Origin: Citricoccus muralis
Lineage (GTDB): Bacteria > Actinomycetota > Actinomycetes > Actinomycetales > Micrococcaceae
Assembly: GCF_029637705.1 (NCBI RefSeq)
Contig: NZ_CP121252.1
Span: forward strand, 2,976,001 to 3,040,000
DNA: 64,000 nucleotides
Direction of reading: 5' to 3'
The position numbers were made by a program, and so were the translations under genes. A model generated the notes under the pieces. It ran no database searches and was not told the origin of the DNA. It saw nothing but the letters and a program-made list of their open reading frames with translations. This document shows positions 51,724 through 64,000 of the stretch, one piece after another. Position 1 is the stretch's first letter; every line of letters begins with the position of its first letter.

Positions 51724-51747
51724 TGCATCACCATCTTACGTGATGCA
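51724..51747. promoter_or_regulatory. Operator candidate between IclR and the P450 operon
   Basis: TGCATCAC-N8-GTGATGCA is a perfect 8-bp inverted repeat, 30 bases upstream of the iclR start and 65 upstream of the reductase start. Confidence 0.5.
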
Positions 51748-51812
51748 TGTCACAGTGGGCTGGCGACGCGTCAGCGTCATTCACCACCACTTCGGCGGAT
51801 CGGAGGAGTCCA

Positions 51813-52772
51813 TTGCACGACAGCATCTATCAACACGGCGATGATCTCGTCATCACTCAGCGCACTCCGGTGTCTGACAGTGTCGTCGAGCTCACTCTGC
51901 AGCGCGGAAATGGCGGCCGACTCCCAGACTGGGCCCCTGGTGCTCATATTGATCTCATTCTGCCAAGCGGCCGCGTACGGCAGTATTCCCTGTGCGGTGA
52001 CCGCTGGCAGGCACACCAGTACCGAGTGGCCGTACAGCGAGATCCTCGCGGTTCCGGAGGCTCACAGGAGATCCACGACCAGCTCAGGGTCGGCGACCGG
52101 GTTCGCTTCGGCGGGCCCCGCAACAACTTCCGGCTGGCCCCGGCCACTGAGTATCGCTTCATTGCCGGCGGAATCGGCATCACCCCGCTGCTACCGATGA
52201 TTCAGCAGGCAGAGCATCTGAACATCCTCTGGCGTCTGCTCTACCTCGGCCGCGATCAGCGACGCATGGCCTACCGTCAACTGGCCTCTCGTTATTCGAA
52301 CCAGGTCACGGTGCACACCTCAGGCCATGGCCACCGTGCCTCCGTGAAGCAGTGGCTGGGCACACCAGACCCGCACACCCTCGTGTACGCCTGCGGGCCG
52401 GAGCACTTGCTGGACGCTCTACCGGATGAATGTGCTGTCTTGCCGCCGTCACAGTTGCGCCTCGAGCGATTCAGCAGCCCCCTGGCAGATGTGCCGGTCA
52501 GCCGGGAGTCCTTCGACATCGTGCTGTCGCGCAGCGGTCGCCGCATCACCGCAAAGAGCTCCGACTCCGTCGTGAATGTGCTCTCGGACGCGGGCATCGA
52601 CGTCATCACGTCGTGCTCCCGTGGTGTCTGCGGCACCTGCGAGGTGGGCGTCATCGAGGGGCGTGTCGATCATCGCGACGCGCTGCTCGACGACGACGAA
52701 CGATCCCGCAACGACTGCATGTTTCCGTGCGTATCCCGGTCCCTGTCTGACTCTCTTGTCCTCGATCTCTGA
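51813..52772 (+). CDS. PDR-type flavin/2Fe-2S oxidoreductase, P450 redox partner
   Basis: The product is 319 aa from the TTG at 51813, chosen because cggaggag at 51801-51808 sits just before it; a longer frame (51747) has no such site. Domain order is that of phthalate dioxygenase reductase: flavin domain with RQYSLCGDR near residue 52, NAD domain with IAGGIGITPLLPM, and C-terminal plant-type 2Fe-2S ferredoxin with CSRGVCGTC (Cys268, 273, 276) and Cys306. It would pass electrons from NADH to the P450 encoded 10 bases downstream. Confidence 0.88.
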   Translation: MHDSIYQHGDDLVITQRTPVSDSVVELTLQRGNGGRLPDWAPGAHIDLILPSGRVRQYSLCGDRWQAHQYRVAVQRDPRGSGGSQEIHDQLRVGDRVRFGGPRNNFRLAPATEYRFIAGGIGITPLLPMIQQAEHLNILWRLLYLGRDQRRMAYRQLASRYSNQVTVHTSGHGHRASVKQWLGTPDPHTLVYACGPEHLLDALPDECAVLPPSQLRLERFSSPLADVPVSRESFDIVLSRSGRRITAKSSDSVVNVLSDAGIDVITSCSRGVCGTCEVGVIEGRVDHRDALLDDDERSRNDCMFPCVSRSLSDSLVLDL

Positions 52773-52782
52773 AAGGATTCCC

Positions 52783-54087
52783 ATGACGTCGCTCGCCGCC
52801 TCTCGCTGCCCGTTCTCGGGAGCCACTGGTGCTCCATCATCATCCGCGGATGGTCCCGCTACTCATGAAGCACCTCGGATCGCATCGACGGCAGCCGTCG
52901 TGGACGTTGATCCCTTCGACGAGGCTGTCCTCGCCAACCCCCACCCGATGCACGAGCAGCTGCGTGAAGCCGGCCGTGATCTCGTGTATCTCCCCCAGTA
53001 CGACACCTACGCGGTGGCCCGCTACGAGGTGGTCCGCGAAACCCTGGAGAATTGGCAGGATTTCGCCAGCGGTGCTGGCGTGGGCCTGAGTAACTTCAAC
53101 CGGGAGGAACCCTGGCGCGCACCATCTCTGCTGCTGGAAGCAGATCCGCCGCGCCACGATGCACCGCGGGCCGCACTGGAGAAGATCCTCGGTCCTCGGC
53201 GGTTGCGCCATTATGAGTCGGGTTGGATGGACACGGCTCACCGGCTCGTGGACTCGCTGCTGGGTCAGGGAATCGGTAGCACCCGGGAGCTGGATGCTGT
53301 TACCGCCATCTCGGAGGTGTATCCGCTGCAGGTCTTCCCCGATGCGGTGGGCCTGACGCAAGGCGGGCTCGAGAATCTGCTCCCTTACGGCAACTTCGCA
53401 TTCAACGCCTTCGGTCCACGCAACCGCCTCGTCACCGACGAGATGGAGTCCATCAAGCCGGTCATGGCCTGGGTTGCCCAACAATGCCCGCGCGAGGCAT
53501 TGTCAGCGGAAGGCTTCGGTGCCGACATTTGGGCACGGACGGATCATCGCGATCTCACCGAGGAGCAGGCCCCGATGATCGTCCGGTCCCTGCTAACTGC
53601 AGGCGTCGACACTACGGTGTACGGAATCTCCGCGGTGCTGTATCACCTGGCGTCGAACCCGGAGCAGTATCAGCGCCTCCGCAACGATCCGAGTCTGGTT
53701 CGCCGGGCTTTTGAGGAGGCGCTCCGCTTAGAGTCCCCGGTCCAGACCTTCTTCCGGACCACCACCCGCGAGGTGAGTATCGGCGGCACCACGCTTCCCA
53801 CCGACCAGAAGGTCTTGATGTTTTTGGGGGCCGCCAATCGTGATCCGCGGCGCTGGGAGAATCCAGACGCTTTCGACCTAGACCGGAACCCCTCCGGTCA
53901 TGTGGCCTTCGGCAGCGGCATTCATCAGTGCGCCGGCCAGCATGTGGCGCGGCTAGAAGCCGCCTGCATTCTTATCGCCCTGCTGGAGCGAGTCGAGCAT
54001 CTCGAGTTCGCCGCCGCACCGGAGCGCAAGATCAACAACACCCTACTGGGATGGGCCTCGCTGCCCCTGCGCCTGCACACCACCTGA
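52783..54087 (+). CDS. Cytochrome P450, CYP199A-like
   Basis: The product is 434 aa from the ATG at 52783. It has the I-helix AGVDTT (Asp276, Thr277), ExxR in EEALRLESP and the heme loop FGSGIHQCAGQ with Cys383. Many stretches recall CYP199A4, the 4-methoxybenzoate O-demethylase: YPLQVFPDAVGLTQ, NLLPYGNFAFNAFGP, ESPVQTFFRTTTREV, NNTLLGWASLPL. The carboxylate-binding residues appear kept: Arg112 and Ser115 in RAPS and Arg268 in the I-helix. Likely reaction: oxidative demethylation of a para-substituted benzoate. Confidence 0.87.
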   Translation: MTSLAASRCPFSGATGAPSSSADGPATHEAPRIASTAAVVDVDPFDEAVLANPHPMHEQLREAGRDLVYLPQYDTYAVARYEVVRETLENWQDFASGAGVGLSNFNREEPWRAPSLLLEADPPRHDAPRAALEKILGPRRLRHYESGWMDTAHRLVDSLLGQGIGSTRELDAVTAISEVYPLQVFPDAVGLTQGGLENLLPYGNFAFNAFGPRNRLVTDEMESIKPVMAWVAQQCPREALSAEGFGADIWARTDHRDLTEEQAPMIVRSLLTAGVDTTVYGISAVLYHLASNPEQYQRLRNDPSLVRRAFEEALRLESPVQTFFRTTTREVSIGGTTLPTDQKVLMFLGAANRDPRRWENPDAFDLDRNPSGHVAFGSGIHQCAGQHVARLEAACILIALLERVEHLEFAAAPERKINNTLLGWASLPLRLHTT

Positions 54088-59645: not shown

Positions 59646-62600
59646 TCAGCTCACGGTGACGGGCTGAGTGTCCGTCAGCGCAGTCACCGTAGCATCGGCC
59701 CAGTCCCGAGCGACGTCGGTGGCGAGCAGCCCACCGGCGGCATCATGGCGGCCGTACTCCCCAACCCGCTGAGCGCCGCGGTCGCGCAGCGCGGCGTCGA
59801 GAATCTCCGAACCGCGCGAATACGTGGCGTGATAAGAGCGATCACCGAGCCCGAACATCGCGTACCGCAGGCCGGACAGATCCGGGGCGTACTCGGCCAG
59901 GCCCGCGTGCAGCGGACGTGCCGAGGCCGGAAGTTCGCCGTCGCCGTAGGTCGAGCAGATCACCACGGTCGGGACGTCAGTGCGCAGATCCTCCGCACCC
60001 GTGAGCTGGGCGGCATCCACTAGGGTGACCGCGAACCGGTCGGCCAGATACTGTGCGAGCTCCTCGGCCACCAACTCCCCGTTCCCGGATTCGGTGGCGA
60101 ACAGGATGCTCAACTCTGGCAGGTCCGTGCGTTGCTTCCCGGATCCCTCCGACGACGCCGCACCGGCGCTCCGCTGGCCCTGCGGCACCGAGGTAGCCGA
60201 AGCGGCGATGAGCCGCAGGGTGCGGGCATCCGTGATCTTGGTGCGGGGCCGGTTCCCGTGTTCTCCCGTTTTTCCGGACTCGAGGCGCTCCCGGGCGTCC
60301 ACCATCAGCCACCCGTCGTAGGTGGTGGACCGAGCCAGATGCGCGCGCAGCGGGGTCAGCCCCGACGCGTCGGAGGCGTCAACAACACCCCGGGATTCCA
60401 GGTCGGCGGCGATGGTCTCGGCGAGTTCGCGGGCGTCGGTGCGCTGCGAGGGGATCGTCCCGACGGGGCCGCGGCGCAGCCACCCGGCCACGTACAGCCC
60501 CGGCTCCACCCGTCCGGTGCTCGAGGCCTCGGGATCCACGCGCACCAACGGAGCGGTGCCGACCCCGTGCTCGGCCTCGAACCCGATGGCGGTGATCACC
60601 GCGTCCACCGGCAGCCGCACCGAATCCTCCAGGCGCTCATGTTCGGCCGAGCTCAGGTGCAGCTGGGACACACGGGACTGGTCGGGGGTGCCTATCACCG
60701 CGTGCGGGGCCGTGCCGAACCACCAGATCAGCTTCAGCCCGTCCGGATCTTCACGATCTTCCGATTCCCCGGCCTCACGCAGCTCGGCCACCAGCTGGCA
60801 GCGCGGGTCACCGGCGGCCAGCCCGCGAGCCAGCTGAGCCTCGTCGACACCGCGCACCTGATGCCGTAGTCCCGGCACGTCCACAATCTCGCGCAGCATC
60901 ACCGGGTCGAATTTGGCCTGCTCCGGCTGCGAGCGCCCCACCACGTGCAGGGTGCGCAGCCCGTTCCGCAGCCGGCGGTGCGTTTCGGCGTGCACGTCGG
61001 ATGCGGCCAGCGCCTGCTCTGATGAGGCCAGCAGGCGCACCACATCCATGGCCACATTGCCGTGGCCGATCACTACCGCCGTCTCGCCCAACTCCGGCCA
61101 GGCGCCGTCGTCGTGTAGCCGCCCGTGCTCGATGGGGCACGAATTCAACAGCCGGGTGATCCGCCCCGATCCGTACACCCCGGGCAGGGTCGCGCCCGGC
61201 ACCGGCAATTCACGATCGGCGTGCAGCCCGGTGGCCACCACCACGACGTCGTGCGACTGCCGCAGCTGGGACAACGAAAGCTCCGCACCCTCGGCCTGCT
61301 GGCTGGTCAGCTCCGGGGCACCCACAGCGGGGCGACCGTGAATCGAAACATCCGCCACCGCACCGGGCCGCACCCGCGTGGAGCCCACGAATTCCACGCC
61401 GTCGCGCTCAAACAGGGTGGCGAACTGAGAGGCCACCGCTTTGGTGCCCTGATGGTCAGCCGCCACCCCGGTGCGCACCAGCCCGTAGGGCACCGGGGCG
61501 GCATCGAGCACGGTGATCCGCGCCTCCGGCAGGCGACGACGCAGCGCCTGGGCCGCATAGCAACCAGCAGGGCCGGCTCCGACCACCGCTACCGCCGGTC
61601 CCGCCGCCGTCTCAGGTGCCTCGGGTACCGTCGGCGACGCCGATGCGGGACCCCAGCGCACCGGCATCTCGTCCATGCCGCGGAACACCCAACCGCCCGG
61701 CACCGCCGGCCGCTCTGGCACCAACCGCAGCTCCGGAAGCTCCGCGAACAACCGCGGCAACGCCACCTCGGCCACTTCCGCGCGGGCCACCCAGGCGCCC
61801 AGGCACACGTGCACGCCCTTGCCGAATGCCAGGTGCGCGCCCTCCCCGGACCGCCGCTGCTCAAACCGCTCCGGATGCGGCCACTGGCTCTCGTCCCGGT
61901 TCGCCGAGAGCAGGCAGATACCCAGCTTCGCCCCGGCTGGCAGCGCCACCCCCTGCAGCACGGTGTCGCGGGTGGTCTGGCGCGAATACATTCCAATCGG
62001 CGCCACCCAGCGGATTGCCTCGTCAAACACGGCATCCCAGTTCCCGGCCCCGGCGGTGGCCAGTGCGCGCTGTTCCGGGTCGCGCAGCAGCGCCCAGGCC
62101 GCCACCCCGATCGCATCGCGCGGCTCGTTGAGTCCGCCGCCGATGGTCATCTTCAGATTTGCCCGGATCGATTCCACCGGCATTTGCTCCTGCCCCGCGG
62201 CCAGCAGCGCCGAAATCAGCGACTCGTCCGGGTGCTTCCGGTGCCAGGCGAGCATCTCGTCCAGCGCCGCATCCACCTCACTAAACGAGGCTTCCCCGCG
62301 CGCCCACACCTCGGGGTCGTCCGCATAGTTGCCGGTAGCGTCGATCAGGGTCTGGCTCCACCGTTGCAGATCAGCTTGGGTAACGTTGTGCAGCCCCGTG
62401 ATCGCGCGCAGATTCTCCGACACGTAGGATGCGGCAAAATCCCACACCAGGTCGGCCTCCGGACCCTTCGCCCTCAGCTCGGCCAGATAGCGTTCGGCGT
62501 TCCGATGGAAAATCGGCATCCACGCTTTCTTCACCGCCGAGGGTCGCAGCACGGGCTGCCAGGCCCGACGCTCCACCTGGTGAGCCGGGTCGTCCTTGCG

Positions 62601-62882
62601 CAGCATCGAGTGCCCCATCGCCCGGATCATCAACGACCCCTGCTCATCGGCAGAAAAGGTGCCCTGGTCTAACTCGGTGTCGTGCACCGCGTCGTAGCTG
62701 GTCACCAGATACCGGCCCACCGCGGGCACCCAATGCACCCCACCCTCGGCACGCAACCGCTCAAACGTCGGGAAAGGGTCGCGGTACAGCTGGGGAATAC
62801 TCACCCAGTCAGCCACCGGCGCCGGACGCGCAGAACCGACATCAACAGGCATATCAGCAGTCATTCCAGCAGACGTGGTCAT
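59646..62882 (-). CDS. Self-sufficient P450 / FprA-like reductase / flavodoxin fusion
   Basis: The product is 1078 aa from the ATG at 62882 (GGAGG six bases upstream, ATGA overlap with the HtaA gene). Residues about 20-410 are a cytochrome P450: ExxR in DEAIRWVAP, heme loop FGKGVHVCLGA with Cys360, and a non-standard I-helix GGGLNEPRDA without the usual Asp/Glu-Thr. Residues about 425-880 are an adrenodoxin-reductase/FprA-type FAD-NADP reductase: VAVVGAGPAGCYAAQAL, PYGLVRTGVAADH, VIGHGNVAMDVVRLL, WLRRGPVGTIPSQRTDA. Residues about 920-1070 are a flavodoxin: LFATESGNGELVAEELAQYL and CSTYGDGELP. All components for NADPH-driven oxygenation are in one chain. Substrate unknown. Confidence 0.9.
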   Translation of the reverse strand: MTTSAGMTADMPVDVGSARPAPVADWVSIPQLYRDPFPTFERLRAEGGVHWVPAVGRYLVTSYDAVHDTELDQGTFSADEQGSLMIRAMGHSMLRKDDPAHQVERRAWQPVLRPSAVKKAWMPIFHRNAERYLAELRAKGPEADLVWDFAASYVSENLRAITGLHNVTQADLQRWSQTLIDATGNYADDPEVWARGEASFSEVDAALDEMLAWHRKHPDESLISALLAAGQEQMPVESIRANLKMTIGGGLNEPRDAIGVAAWALLRDPEQRALATAGAGNWDAVFDEAIRWVAPIGMYSRQTTRDTVLQGVALPAGAKLGICLLSANRDESQWPHPERFEQRRSGEGAHLAFGKGVHVCLGAWVARAEVAEVALPRLFAELPELRLVPERPAVPGGWVFRGMDEMPVRWGPASASPTVPEAPETAAGPAVAVVGAGPAGCYAAQALRRRLPEARITVLDAAPVPYGLVRTGVAADHQGTKAVASQFATLFERDGVEFVGSTRVRPGAVADVSIHGRPAVGAPELTSQQAEGAELSLSQLRQSHDVVVVATGLHADRELPVPGATLPGVYGSGRITRLLNSCPIEHGRLHDDGAWPELGETAVVIGHGNVAMDVVRLLASSEQALAASDVHAETHRRLRNGLRTLHVVGRSQPEQAKFDPVMLREIVDVPGLRHQVRGVDEAQLARGLAAGDPRCQLVAELREAGESEDREDPDGLKLIWWFGTAPHAVIGTPDQSRVSQLHLSSAEHERLEDSVRLPVDAVITAIGFEAEHGVGTAPLVRVDPEASSTGRVEPGLYVAGWLRRGPVGTIPSQRTDARELAETIAADLESRGVVDASDASGLTPLRAHLARSTTYDGWLMVDARERLESGKTGEHGNRPRTKITDARTLRLIAASATSVPQGQRSAGAASSEGSGKQRTDLPELSILFATESGNGELVAEELAQYLADRFAVTLVDAAQLTGAEDLRTDVPTVVICSTYGDGELPASARPLHAGLAEYAPDLSGLRYAMFGLGDRSYHATYSRGSEILDAALRDRGAQRVGEYGRHDAAGGLLATDVARDWADATVTALTDTQPVTVS

Positions 62883-63298
62883 CCGTTTCCTCCACAAGTC
62901 ACAGTCACCGGGTCGAAGCTCATCCCCGGCGCGTAGGTGCCCAAAAACAGGTCGGCGCCGGCTTCGGTCAGCGTCGTGGTTCCGTCGGTCTCACGCACGA
63001 CGACGACGTCGAGCCGCGCCCCCGGAACCGAATCCGGAAACGGATCCTCCACCGTGAGCAGACCGTCCATCAACTGCGGGCGCGCCAGTGTGAGGGCGAG
63101 CATCCCGTGATGTCCGGTGAAGTGAACGGCCCCGGCGAAGCACCCCGGCTCCTCCGCCATCGCCGGGAAGAAAATTCGCTGGTCGGGATCGATCAGAGCG
63201 CCGTCACTCACCTCAATGCGACCATCCTCCAGGCGCTCGAGGTAGCCGCGGAACCGGGCGTGCACGCCCCACAGCAGTCCGATCTGAGTCGTCGTCAT
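62879..63298 (-). CDS. Single-domain cytoplasmic HtaA-type heme-binding protein
   Basis: The product is 139 aa, one HtaA conserved region: LLWGVHARFRGYLERLEDGR, EVSDGALI, AVHFTGHHGMLALTLARPQL. HtaA domains of corynebacteria bind heme through a conserved Tyr and His; the Tyr in FRGYLE and His in TGHHGM are candidates. Unlike secreted HtaA/HtaB/HtaC it has no signal peptide or membrane anchor. The stop overlaps the P450 fusion start (ATGA). A role in supplying or holding heme, or in sensing, for the P450 is inference. Confidence 0.78.
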   Translation of the reverse strand: MTTTQIGLLWGVHARFRGYLERLEDGRIEVSDGALIDPDQRIFFPAMAEEPGCFAGAVHFTGHHGMLALTLARPQLMDGLLTVEDPFPDSVPGARLDVVVVRETDGTTTLTEAGADLFLGTYAPGMSFDPVTVTCGGNG

Positions 63299-63374
63299 AC
63301 CGTTAACTGTGAGCCACCTCTCAACCGGAGTTCAACTGAGAATCTCTCCGATAAAAACGCACTATTCTTGCGTT

Positions 63375-64000
63375 ATGGATGCAGACTCCTCGTCACCGAC
63401 CTCCCCGAGCTCCCCGCAGATCACCCTGCGCCAGCTCGAACTCTTCTGCGCCGCCGCCCGCACGGGCTCCTTTACCGCCGCAGCCCAGGAACGCTACGTC
63501 ACCCCCAACGCCGTGGCCGGCGCCGTCACCGATCTGGAAACCGCACTCAAAGTCCGCCTCTGCGTGCGACGCCGGGCCCGCGGCCTGGAACTCACCGGAG
63601 CCGGGGAGGCCCTCCTCGCCCGCGCGCAACACCTTCTCGTCACCGCCGAGGACCTCGTTCTAAATATTGGCGACCACGACGGCGCCCCGCGCGGCCCGGT
63701 CCGCCTCGGCTGTTACACCACCCTGGCCGCCACCCTGATACCGCCACTCTGGGAACACGTCAGCGCCCACCTACCCGGAGTGCGGCTCGACATGGTGGAG
63801 GGCACCGCCACCGAGCTTGCCGAGCAAGTCACCGCCGGGCGCCTGGACATGCTGATCGCCTACGAGGTCGGCCTCTCACCCGAACTGGCCGCGCGCACCC
63901 TCTTCACCACCGAGCCGCAGGTCATCCTCCCCGCCGACCATCGCCTGGCCGCCCACCGCGCCCCGGTCCCCCTGACGGAACTCGCCGAGGATCCACTGAT
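63375..64000 (+). CDS. LysR-family regulator (3' end beyond window)
   Basis: An open frame from the ATG at 63375 runs off the window after 208 codons. The N-terminal helix-turn-helix is LRQLELFCAAARTGSFTAAA then QERYVTPNAVAGAVTDLETA, followed by VRRRARGLELTGAGEALL and the start of the effector domain (GPVRLGCYTTLAATLIPPLW). It is divergent from the HtaA/P450-fusion operon with only 76 bases between starts, so it is the likely regulator of that operon. The intergenic region has a TCTCA-N13-TGAGA repeat. Confidence 0.88.
   Translation, partial: MDADSSSPTSPSSPQITLRQLELFCAAARTGSFTAAAQERYVTPNAVAGAVTDLETALKVRLCVRRRARGLELTGAGEALLARAQHLLVTAEDLVLNIGDHDGAPRGPVRLGCYTTLAATLIPPLWEHVSAHLPGVRLDMVEGTATELAEQVTAGRLDMLIAYEVGLSPELAARTLFTTEPQVILPADHRLAAHRAPVPLTELAEDPL

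Follow-up and report, generated by a model that had tools for sequence, protein, structure and literature searches.

A predicted self-sufficient cytochrome P450 of Citricoccus muralis that carries a CYP1232A-type heme domain, an adrenodoxin-reductase-type domain and a flavodoxin on one chain, a probable methoxyphenylacetate O-demethylase

A 64,000-nucleotide stretch of the Citricoccus muralis genome (NCBI RefSeq assembly GCF_029637705.1, contig NZ_CP121252.1, positions 2,976,001 to 3,040,000; hereafter the window, to whose numbering coordinates refer unless another locus is named) contains an open reading frame (ORF) that joins a cytochrome P450 (P450), a flavin adenine dinucleotide (FAD) reductase and a flavodoxin. 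We consider it likely that the encoded protein is a catalytically self-sufficient P450 with the whole electron chain of the P450cin type on one polypeptide, probably a methoxyphenylacetate O-demethylase that feeds the homoprotocatechuate (Hpa) pathway. The fusion would probably strip methyl groups from plant-derived aromatic acids. With less confidence, we lean towards regarding it as the representative of a further self-sufficient class, in which a CYP1232A heme domain with fused FAD reductase and flavodoxin arose once in actinobacteria, from a lineage in which the closest unfused P450s rely on a ferredoxin system, was passed to Halomonadaceae and serves the homoprotocatechuate pathway as a one-protein O-demethylase.

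The ORF is located on the reverse strand at 59646-62882 and forms one unbroken reading frame of 1078 codons with no internal stops. A preliminary description of the window had claimed three modules in one 1078-residue frame, in the order heme, FAD, flavin mononucleotide (FMN), with a FAD domain of the adrenodoxin-reductase type and not of the cytochrome P450 reductase (CPR) type, and had proposed a domain search. This search detected p450, Pyr_redox_2 and Flavodoxin_1 (Pfam) on the chain, each over its gathering score, and all of these claims were borne out. The ATG of the fusion shares bases with the stop codon of the gene before it (ATGA) and has a GGAGG six bases 5' of it, so this start is more likely than a TTG located five codons upstream. 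Conservation was followed in a 48-row alignment of fusions, which comprises the 53 one-frame loci described below except L071, L096, L101, L124 and L137. The domains and motifs are located as follows.

59646..62882, minus strand: whole ORF for P450, FAD reductase and flavodoxin, 1078 residues, with the ATG start at 62882 and the stop at 59646-59648; 52 non-redundant loci, the window among them, have it complete and in a single frame
61641..62825, minus strand: heme (P450, CYP1232A-like) domain, residues 20-414; matches 6g71 with an expectation (E) value of 4.2e-155 and 59.9% identity
62115..62141, minus strand: I-helix GGGLNEPRD, residues 248-256, without acid-threonine pair; in 48 of 48 aligned fusions and also in 6g71
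62010..62021, minus strand: ExxR motif EAIR, residues 288-291; ExxR retained across the 48 aligned fusions
61803..61805, minus strand: heme-thiolate Cys360 in FGKGVHVCLG; cysteine invariant across the 48 fusions
61596..61640, minus strand: linker 1, heme to FAD, residues 415-429; predicted local distance difference test (pLDDT) below 50 at 414-425, lengths differ among orthologues
60210..61598, minus strand: FAD/NAD(P) domain of the adrenodoxin-reductase/FprA type, residues 429-891; matches 1cjc and 1lqt by sequence and fold
60120..60209, minus strand: linker 2, FAD to FMN, residues 892-921; pLDDT below 50 at 898-911 and 913-916, lengths differ among orthologues
59676..60119, minus strand: flavodoxin (FMN) domain, residues 922-1069; Flavodoxin_1 E 1.3e-24, cindoxin 4oxx E 9.9e-20

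The solved P450 closest to the heme domain is 6g71, an entry with the title 'Structure of CYP1232A24 from Arthrobacter sp.'. P450s with more than 40% identity are assigned to the same family and those with more than 55% to the same subfamily, and with 59.9% identity across the aligned domain the heme domain falls into CYP1232 and CYP1232A. The next solved P450s by sequence, SyoA and GcoA, are only about 25-29% identical. In the fold comparison GcoA leads after CYP1232A24; an ancestral CYP125 is interspersed with the GcoA rows, and SyoA ranks lower. The titles of these crystal structures name guaiacol and syringol for GcoA and syringol for SyoA.

The missing acid-threonine pair of the I-helix, pointed out in the preliminary description, is a real and conserved feature of the fusions: GGGLNEPRD was found in 52 of the 53 fusions of the tree set, the remaining one having GGGVNEPRD. 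The motif is however not distinctive of the window protein, because CYP1232A24 carries it too; GcoA, with GAMQEPGH at the aligned position, likewise lacks the threonine. The heme loop FGKGVHVCLG is present in 6g71 and in 28 of the 53 fused rows, with deviations at one or two positions in the other 25, and stand-alone P450s have FGGGxHxCAG in 17 of 19 rows.

The FAD domain matches the solved structures 1cjc (E 1.7e-38) and 1lqt (E 1.2e-34) by sequence, and the fold comparison gave a template modelling score of 0.82 for 1cjc by target length. For the flavodoxin domain, the top solved match by sequence is cindoxin. GxGPxG and GxGNVAxD of the FAD domain are invariant across the aligned fusions, and the FMN loops TESG, STYGDGE and GLGDRSY are retained with minor changes. 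The structure of the full chain was predicted with the aligned fusions as input, resulting in a mean pLDDT of 83.6 and a predicted template modelling (pTM) score of 0.64; since this pTM is modest, the relative placement of the domains in the model is not to be read as known. Stretches with a pLDDT below 50 are the chain ends, both linkers (414-425 and 898-916), residues 513-525 and the loop 351-359. The low pLDDT and the length variation of the two interdomain linkers indicate, as far as the model goes, that both are flexible. Fold matches of the predicted structure agree with the identities assigned to the heme and FAD domains by sequence; the comparison bears on these two domains only, as the 50 Foldseek rows listed include no flavodoxin, and the VIA-align rows listed concern the heme domain alone.

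The preliminary description also suggested looking for the three-domain order in other genomes, where it does recur. Among 395 genomes of the window's family 16 carry the fusion, in one of them with the flavodoxin cut off at the contig end. Sampling 396 genomes from the order yielded 10 with matches above a strict threshold, each in a frame of more than 1000 residues; this count is based on the threshold and the frame length, not on individual domains. A scan of named genomes with the FAD-flavodoxin half identified 277 relatives. The best 80 of these were taken further, and the true number of fusions may therefore be larger than the number found. After removal of duplicates, 53 loci including the window have the fusion in one frame, and 52 of them hold three whole domains, the exception being L096 with only half of its flavodoxin (the rest is out of frame). 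Same-contig duplicates (for example L085, which equals L067), L077 and L118 (cut by contig ends) and L140 and L144 (frames split) were excluded from counts and trees. The 52 whole loci fall into six families, from Micrococcaceae to Halomonadaceae, and the fusion genera are Tersicoccus, Citricoccus, Enteractinococcus, Yaniella, Kocuria, Arthrobacter, Gulosibacter, Agrococcus, Microbacterium, Leucobacter, Labedella, Brevibacterium, Enemella, Serinicoccus, Halomonas and Kushneria. A plasmid search returned 40 records at E values up to 1e-60, none of which spans 80% of the query.

In a quick tree of heme domains, the fused rows make up one side of a branch (54 versus 38 rows) with a Shimodaira-Hasegawa-like approximate likelihood ratio test (SH-aLRT) value of 99; locus L031 and two stand-alone genomes were each entered twice in this tree. 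In the tree of the reductase half, the 53 fused rows group with L105, a locus truncated by its contig end and retained under its own label, at a support of 100. Judged by these trees, the fused heme domains are one clade and so are the fused reductases. A more careful heme tree, which includes 6g71 and omits the distant P450s, groups the fused rows with a support of 80/87 and is not decisive. The identity of 6g71 is on average 60% to the fused rows versus 53-56% to the stand-alone P450s (39-43% for two distant rows). Closest to the fused heme domains is a group of 19 rows of stand-alone P450s, with two genomes doubled. The two members annotated, L035 and L036, adjoin a [2Fe-2S] ferredoxin and a Pyr_redox_2/Reductase_C protein, and in L083 and L084 a partial reductase match is located next to the stand-alone P450. 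Rows from Halomonadaceae are nested among actinobacterial rows in both the heme and the reductase trees, which suggests that the fusion was transferred between phyla, from actinobacteria to Halomonadaceae.

Separate genes for P450, FAD protein and flavodoxin, in the same order as in the fusion, are found in Pseudomonas, where the P450s are distant in the tree; a Klebsiella plasmid has the order FAD, flavodoxin, P450. In L145 and related Pseudomonas loci, the three genes have as neighbours genes for a glutamine-synthetase-like protein, a glutamine amidotransferase and an aldehyde dehydrogenase that resembles PuuC but scores below cut-off, which suggests an amine as substrate there. Pairs of FAD and flavodoxin genes with no P450 in the fetched stretch occur in Alphaproteobacteria (L134, L135, L142, L147, L148, L151, L154-L156, L158, L159, L161 and L163); the pair in L155 has an aldehyde dehydrogenase, a thiamine-pyrophosphate enzyme and short-chain dehydrogenases as neighbours. 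Arthrobacter terricola (L094, 2678-7803) has another P450 gene and one more flavodoxin gene immediately ahead of the fusion. Next to a Kushneria fusion (L119, 7842-9350, plus strand) we found a frame of 503 residues, also present in three other Halomonadaceae loci, without a Pfam match at E 1e-6 or an NCBIfam match at E 1e-15.

The proposed pathway derives from genes near the fusion. Near relatives' fusions we found HpaE and HpaD, both above NCBIfam cut-offs, a 5-carboxymethyl-2-hydroxymuconate isomerase (Pfam) and a dehydrogenase that is closest to phenylacetaldehyde dehydrogenase and scores under the cut-off of that family. The substrate of HpaD is 3,4-dihydroxyphenylacetate, the compound to which CYP1232A24 reportedly demethylates homovanillate; the enzyme is said to act on dimethoxyphenylacetate too. 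Distances were evaluated for 57 fusion genomes, made up of 54 named fusion loci (43 plus 11), G081, G109 and the genome of the window. In 21 of the 57 genomes HpaD and the fusion are no more than 15 kb apart, and in 24 no more than 25 kb; we estimate that chance would place it within 15 kb in under one of 57. Forty of the first 43 were placed by coordinates, with HpaD at up to 15 kb in 21 of them and at up to 25 kb in 23, and in the other three HpaD is on another contig (L096, L139) or about 158 kb away (L114). The 11 further named loci, G081 and G109 have none within 15 kb by coordinates alone; in G109 it is 22 kb off. The 21 linked loci represent six named genera: nine are from Agrococcus, five from Microbacterium and two each from Halomonas and Kushneria, the rest being from Labedella, Serinicoccus and one further member of the Micrococcales.

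Around the fusion, the window contains the following genes.

62879..63298, minus strand: upstream HtaA-domain gene (PF04213, Pfam), 139 residues, its stop overlapping the P450 start
63309..64000, plus strand: divergent LysR-type regulator (Pfam), continuing beyond the window end
51747-54087, plus strand: reductase gene followed by a second P450, 5.6 kb from the fusion

The overlap suggests that the HtaA gene and the fusion are translationally coupled in the window. Such coupling is not general, because the HtaA-like ORFs near the fusion (43 of 69 loci) are split between the strand of the fusion (23) and the opposite one (20). The HtaA protein may perhaps have a role in heme or substrate handling. 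A LysR-like ORF is present near the fusion in 58 of the 69 loci; counts out of 69 include duplicates. The second P450 has PbdA (9g9q, title naming p-methoxybenzoate) as its top solved match and is also near CYP199A4. Its adjoining reductase best matches 6kbh and 6laa, which we take to be CYP116B enzymes, and then phthalate dioxygenase reductase. This pair is likely a second O-demethylase, by its sequence matches, with a different partner type from the fusion.

From these data we infer an electron path, a cofactor preference and a substrate. A reduced pyridine nucleotide, probably reduced nicotinamide adenine dinucleotide phosphate (NADPH), would reduce the adrenodoxin-reductase-type FAD domain, and single electrons would pass from FAD to the FMN-carrying flavodoxin at the C-terminus. 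This flavodoxin, on its flexible linker, would then swing back to the CYP1232A-type heme, possibly that of a partner chain, and reduce it for activation of O2. Aromatic O-demethylation is proposed because both the relatives (CYP1232A24, SyoA, GcoA) and the neighbouring genes point there, and the PbdA-like P450 is a second hint towards methoxy-aromatic substrates. The heme domain would most likely O-demethylate a methoxylated phenylacetate, our best guess being conversion of homovanillate to 3,4-dihydroxyphenylacetate and formaldehyde. The product would enter the homoprotocatechuate meta-cleavage pathway, under control of the LysR-type regulator.

Several observations weigh against this proposal. 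In 36 of the 57 fusion genomes no HpaD lies within 15 kb (many of them are drafts with HpaD on another contig), and nine of the 21 linked loci are from Agrococcus and so not independent; the linked loci also include L105, whose P450 lies past the end of its contig, and L144, with a split frame. In the window's family, HpaD comes within 15 kb of the fusion, by coordinates, in none of the 16 fusion genomes, the window's included; the nearest are 20-22 kb off (L099, L127, G109), and in the window's own genome HpaD and HpaE are about 225 kb away. HpaD occurs in 55 of the 57 fusion genomes (43 of 43, 11 of 13 and the window's own) and was not found in two, both draft metagenome-assembled genomes. 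However, 352 of the 395 genomes searched in the window's family have it too; co-occurrence thus discriminates nothing and was dropped as pathway evidence, and only linkage discriminates. On the protein side, the NADP motif of adrenodoxin reductase, GRR, reads GRS in all 48 aligned fusions, the second arginine being replaced by serine, as it also does in most separate-gene relatives where the motif was located; the choice between NADPH and NADH is therefore uncertain. In addition, the model loop 351-359, with its pLDDT below 50, lies beside the heme cysteine, and the fold search also matches many P450s of quite different function.

A self-sufficient P450 acting on another substrate is a less probable alternative that still deserves serious attention; vanillate, guaiacol, 3,4-dimethoxyphenylacetate, a methoxybenzoate or ring hydroxylation of a phenylacetate come into question. 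The structural neighbours include enzymes for guaiacol, syringol and methoxybenzoate, a PbdA-like P450 is encoded nearby in the window, HpaD is not within 15 kb in most fusion genomes including the window's, and a phenol-hydroxylase-like gene (NF006144) is present in 8 of 69 loci. The nearest relative, CYP1232A24, speaks for a phenylacetate instead, given the activities on homovanillate and dimethoxyphenylacetate ascribed to it, and every linked ring-cleavage gene found is HpaD, although other ring-cleavage families were not searched likewise.

We regard it as unlikely that the fused reductase half mainly serves other oxygenases in trans, or that the heme domain mainly uses other partners, the fusion being a mere convenience. 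The alphaproteobacterial gene pairs for FAD protein and flavodoxin, which have no P450 in the fetched stretch, would fit this explanation, as would the ferredoxin and ferredoxin reductase beside both sister P450s checked, the second P450 and extra flavodoxin next to the fusion in L094, and the other P450 in the window, though the latter has its own reductase. Against it, 52 non-redundant loci belonging to one clade retain the complete fusion and intact cofactor motifs, and among the fused loci (fetched stretches of 3 to 20 kb) only L094 has a second P450. A merger of three adjacent genes through a lost stop or frameshift, that is an annotation or assembly artefact, was rejected as extremely improbable: despite the three adjacent separate genes of the same order in Pseudomonas, the frames split in L140 and L144 and the out-of-frame half flavodoxin of L096, the frame is not broken between the domains in 52 non-redundant loci from different assemblies.

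Several known systems resemble the fusion in part. According to a published account, flavodoxin and flavodoxin reductase are the partners in the CYP1232 cluster of Arthrobacter (PMC9687028, citing Klenk et al., 2019), the same kinds of redox partner as in the fusion. CYP1232A24 shares I-helix, heme loop and 59.9% identity with the heme domain; it was solved as a P450 of 405 residues, flavodoxin and reductase being described as its partners, whereas the window protein has all three in one chain. Its gene was sought in 198 genomes of the genus of Arthrobacter terricola, where the best match was 61% and the exact gene was not found. The same account gives the P450cin chain as NADPH, FAD reductase (cindoxin reductase), flavodoxin (cindoxin) and P450 (PMC9687028). 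The fusion resembles this system in having a flavodoxin as putative carrier, its Flavodoxin_1 domain matching cindoxin 4oxx best, and differs in that P450cin employs three separate polypeptides.

The layout is unlike that of the other fused systems, as the preliminary description had held. In XplA, a flavodoxin is fused N-terminally to the P450, and the XplB-type FAD reductase, of the adrenodoxin-reductase type, is separate; in the fusion the flavodoxin and the FAD domain are both C-terminal to the heme domain. CYP102 (P450 BM3, class VIII) also has heme, FAD and FMN on one chain, but in the order heme-FMN-FAD and with a diflavin reductase of the CPR/ferredoxin-NADP reductase type, while the fusion has the order heme-FAD-FMN and a FAD domain that matches adrenodoxin reductase/FprA. 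CYP116B (P450 RhF, class VII) is self-sufficient, as predicted for the fusion, with a reductase containing FMN and a C-terminal [2Fe-2S] ferredoxin domain; the fusion has no Fer2 match and ends in Flavodoxin_1 (Pfam). Some CYP116B members take part in 2-hydroxyphenylacetate catabolism, as stated in PMC11889516. GcoA and SyoA are unfused in the solved chains and only about 25-29% identical to the heme domain.

The further claim, that no described class has this layout, stands in part. No description of the three parts joined in one chain was found in the literature searched, which lacked most subscription journals, and an earlier description possibly exists. The name CYP1232A24 implies that other CYP1232A members have already been named, and some of them may be such fusions. 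The three-component electron chain itself is known from P450cin and the CYP1232 cluster, so the novelty lies in joining the parts covalently, not in the chemistry. Self-sufficient P450s are sorted mainly into two classes, VII and VIII, in PMC11889516, a recent paper. If our reading is correct, a third layout that uses the adrenodoxin-reductase fold would be widespread, and nature would have fused the P450cin-type chain as well. The fusion would then offer a single-protein demethylase for methoxylated aromatics, for example those derived from lignin. With a flavodoxin chain in the fused members and a ferredoxin system beside the two sisters checked, swapping of redox partners would be directly testable within this lineage.

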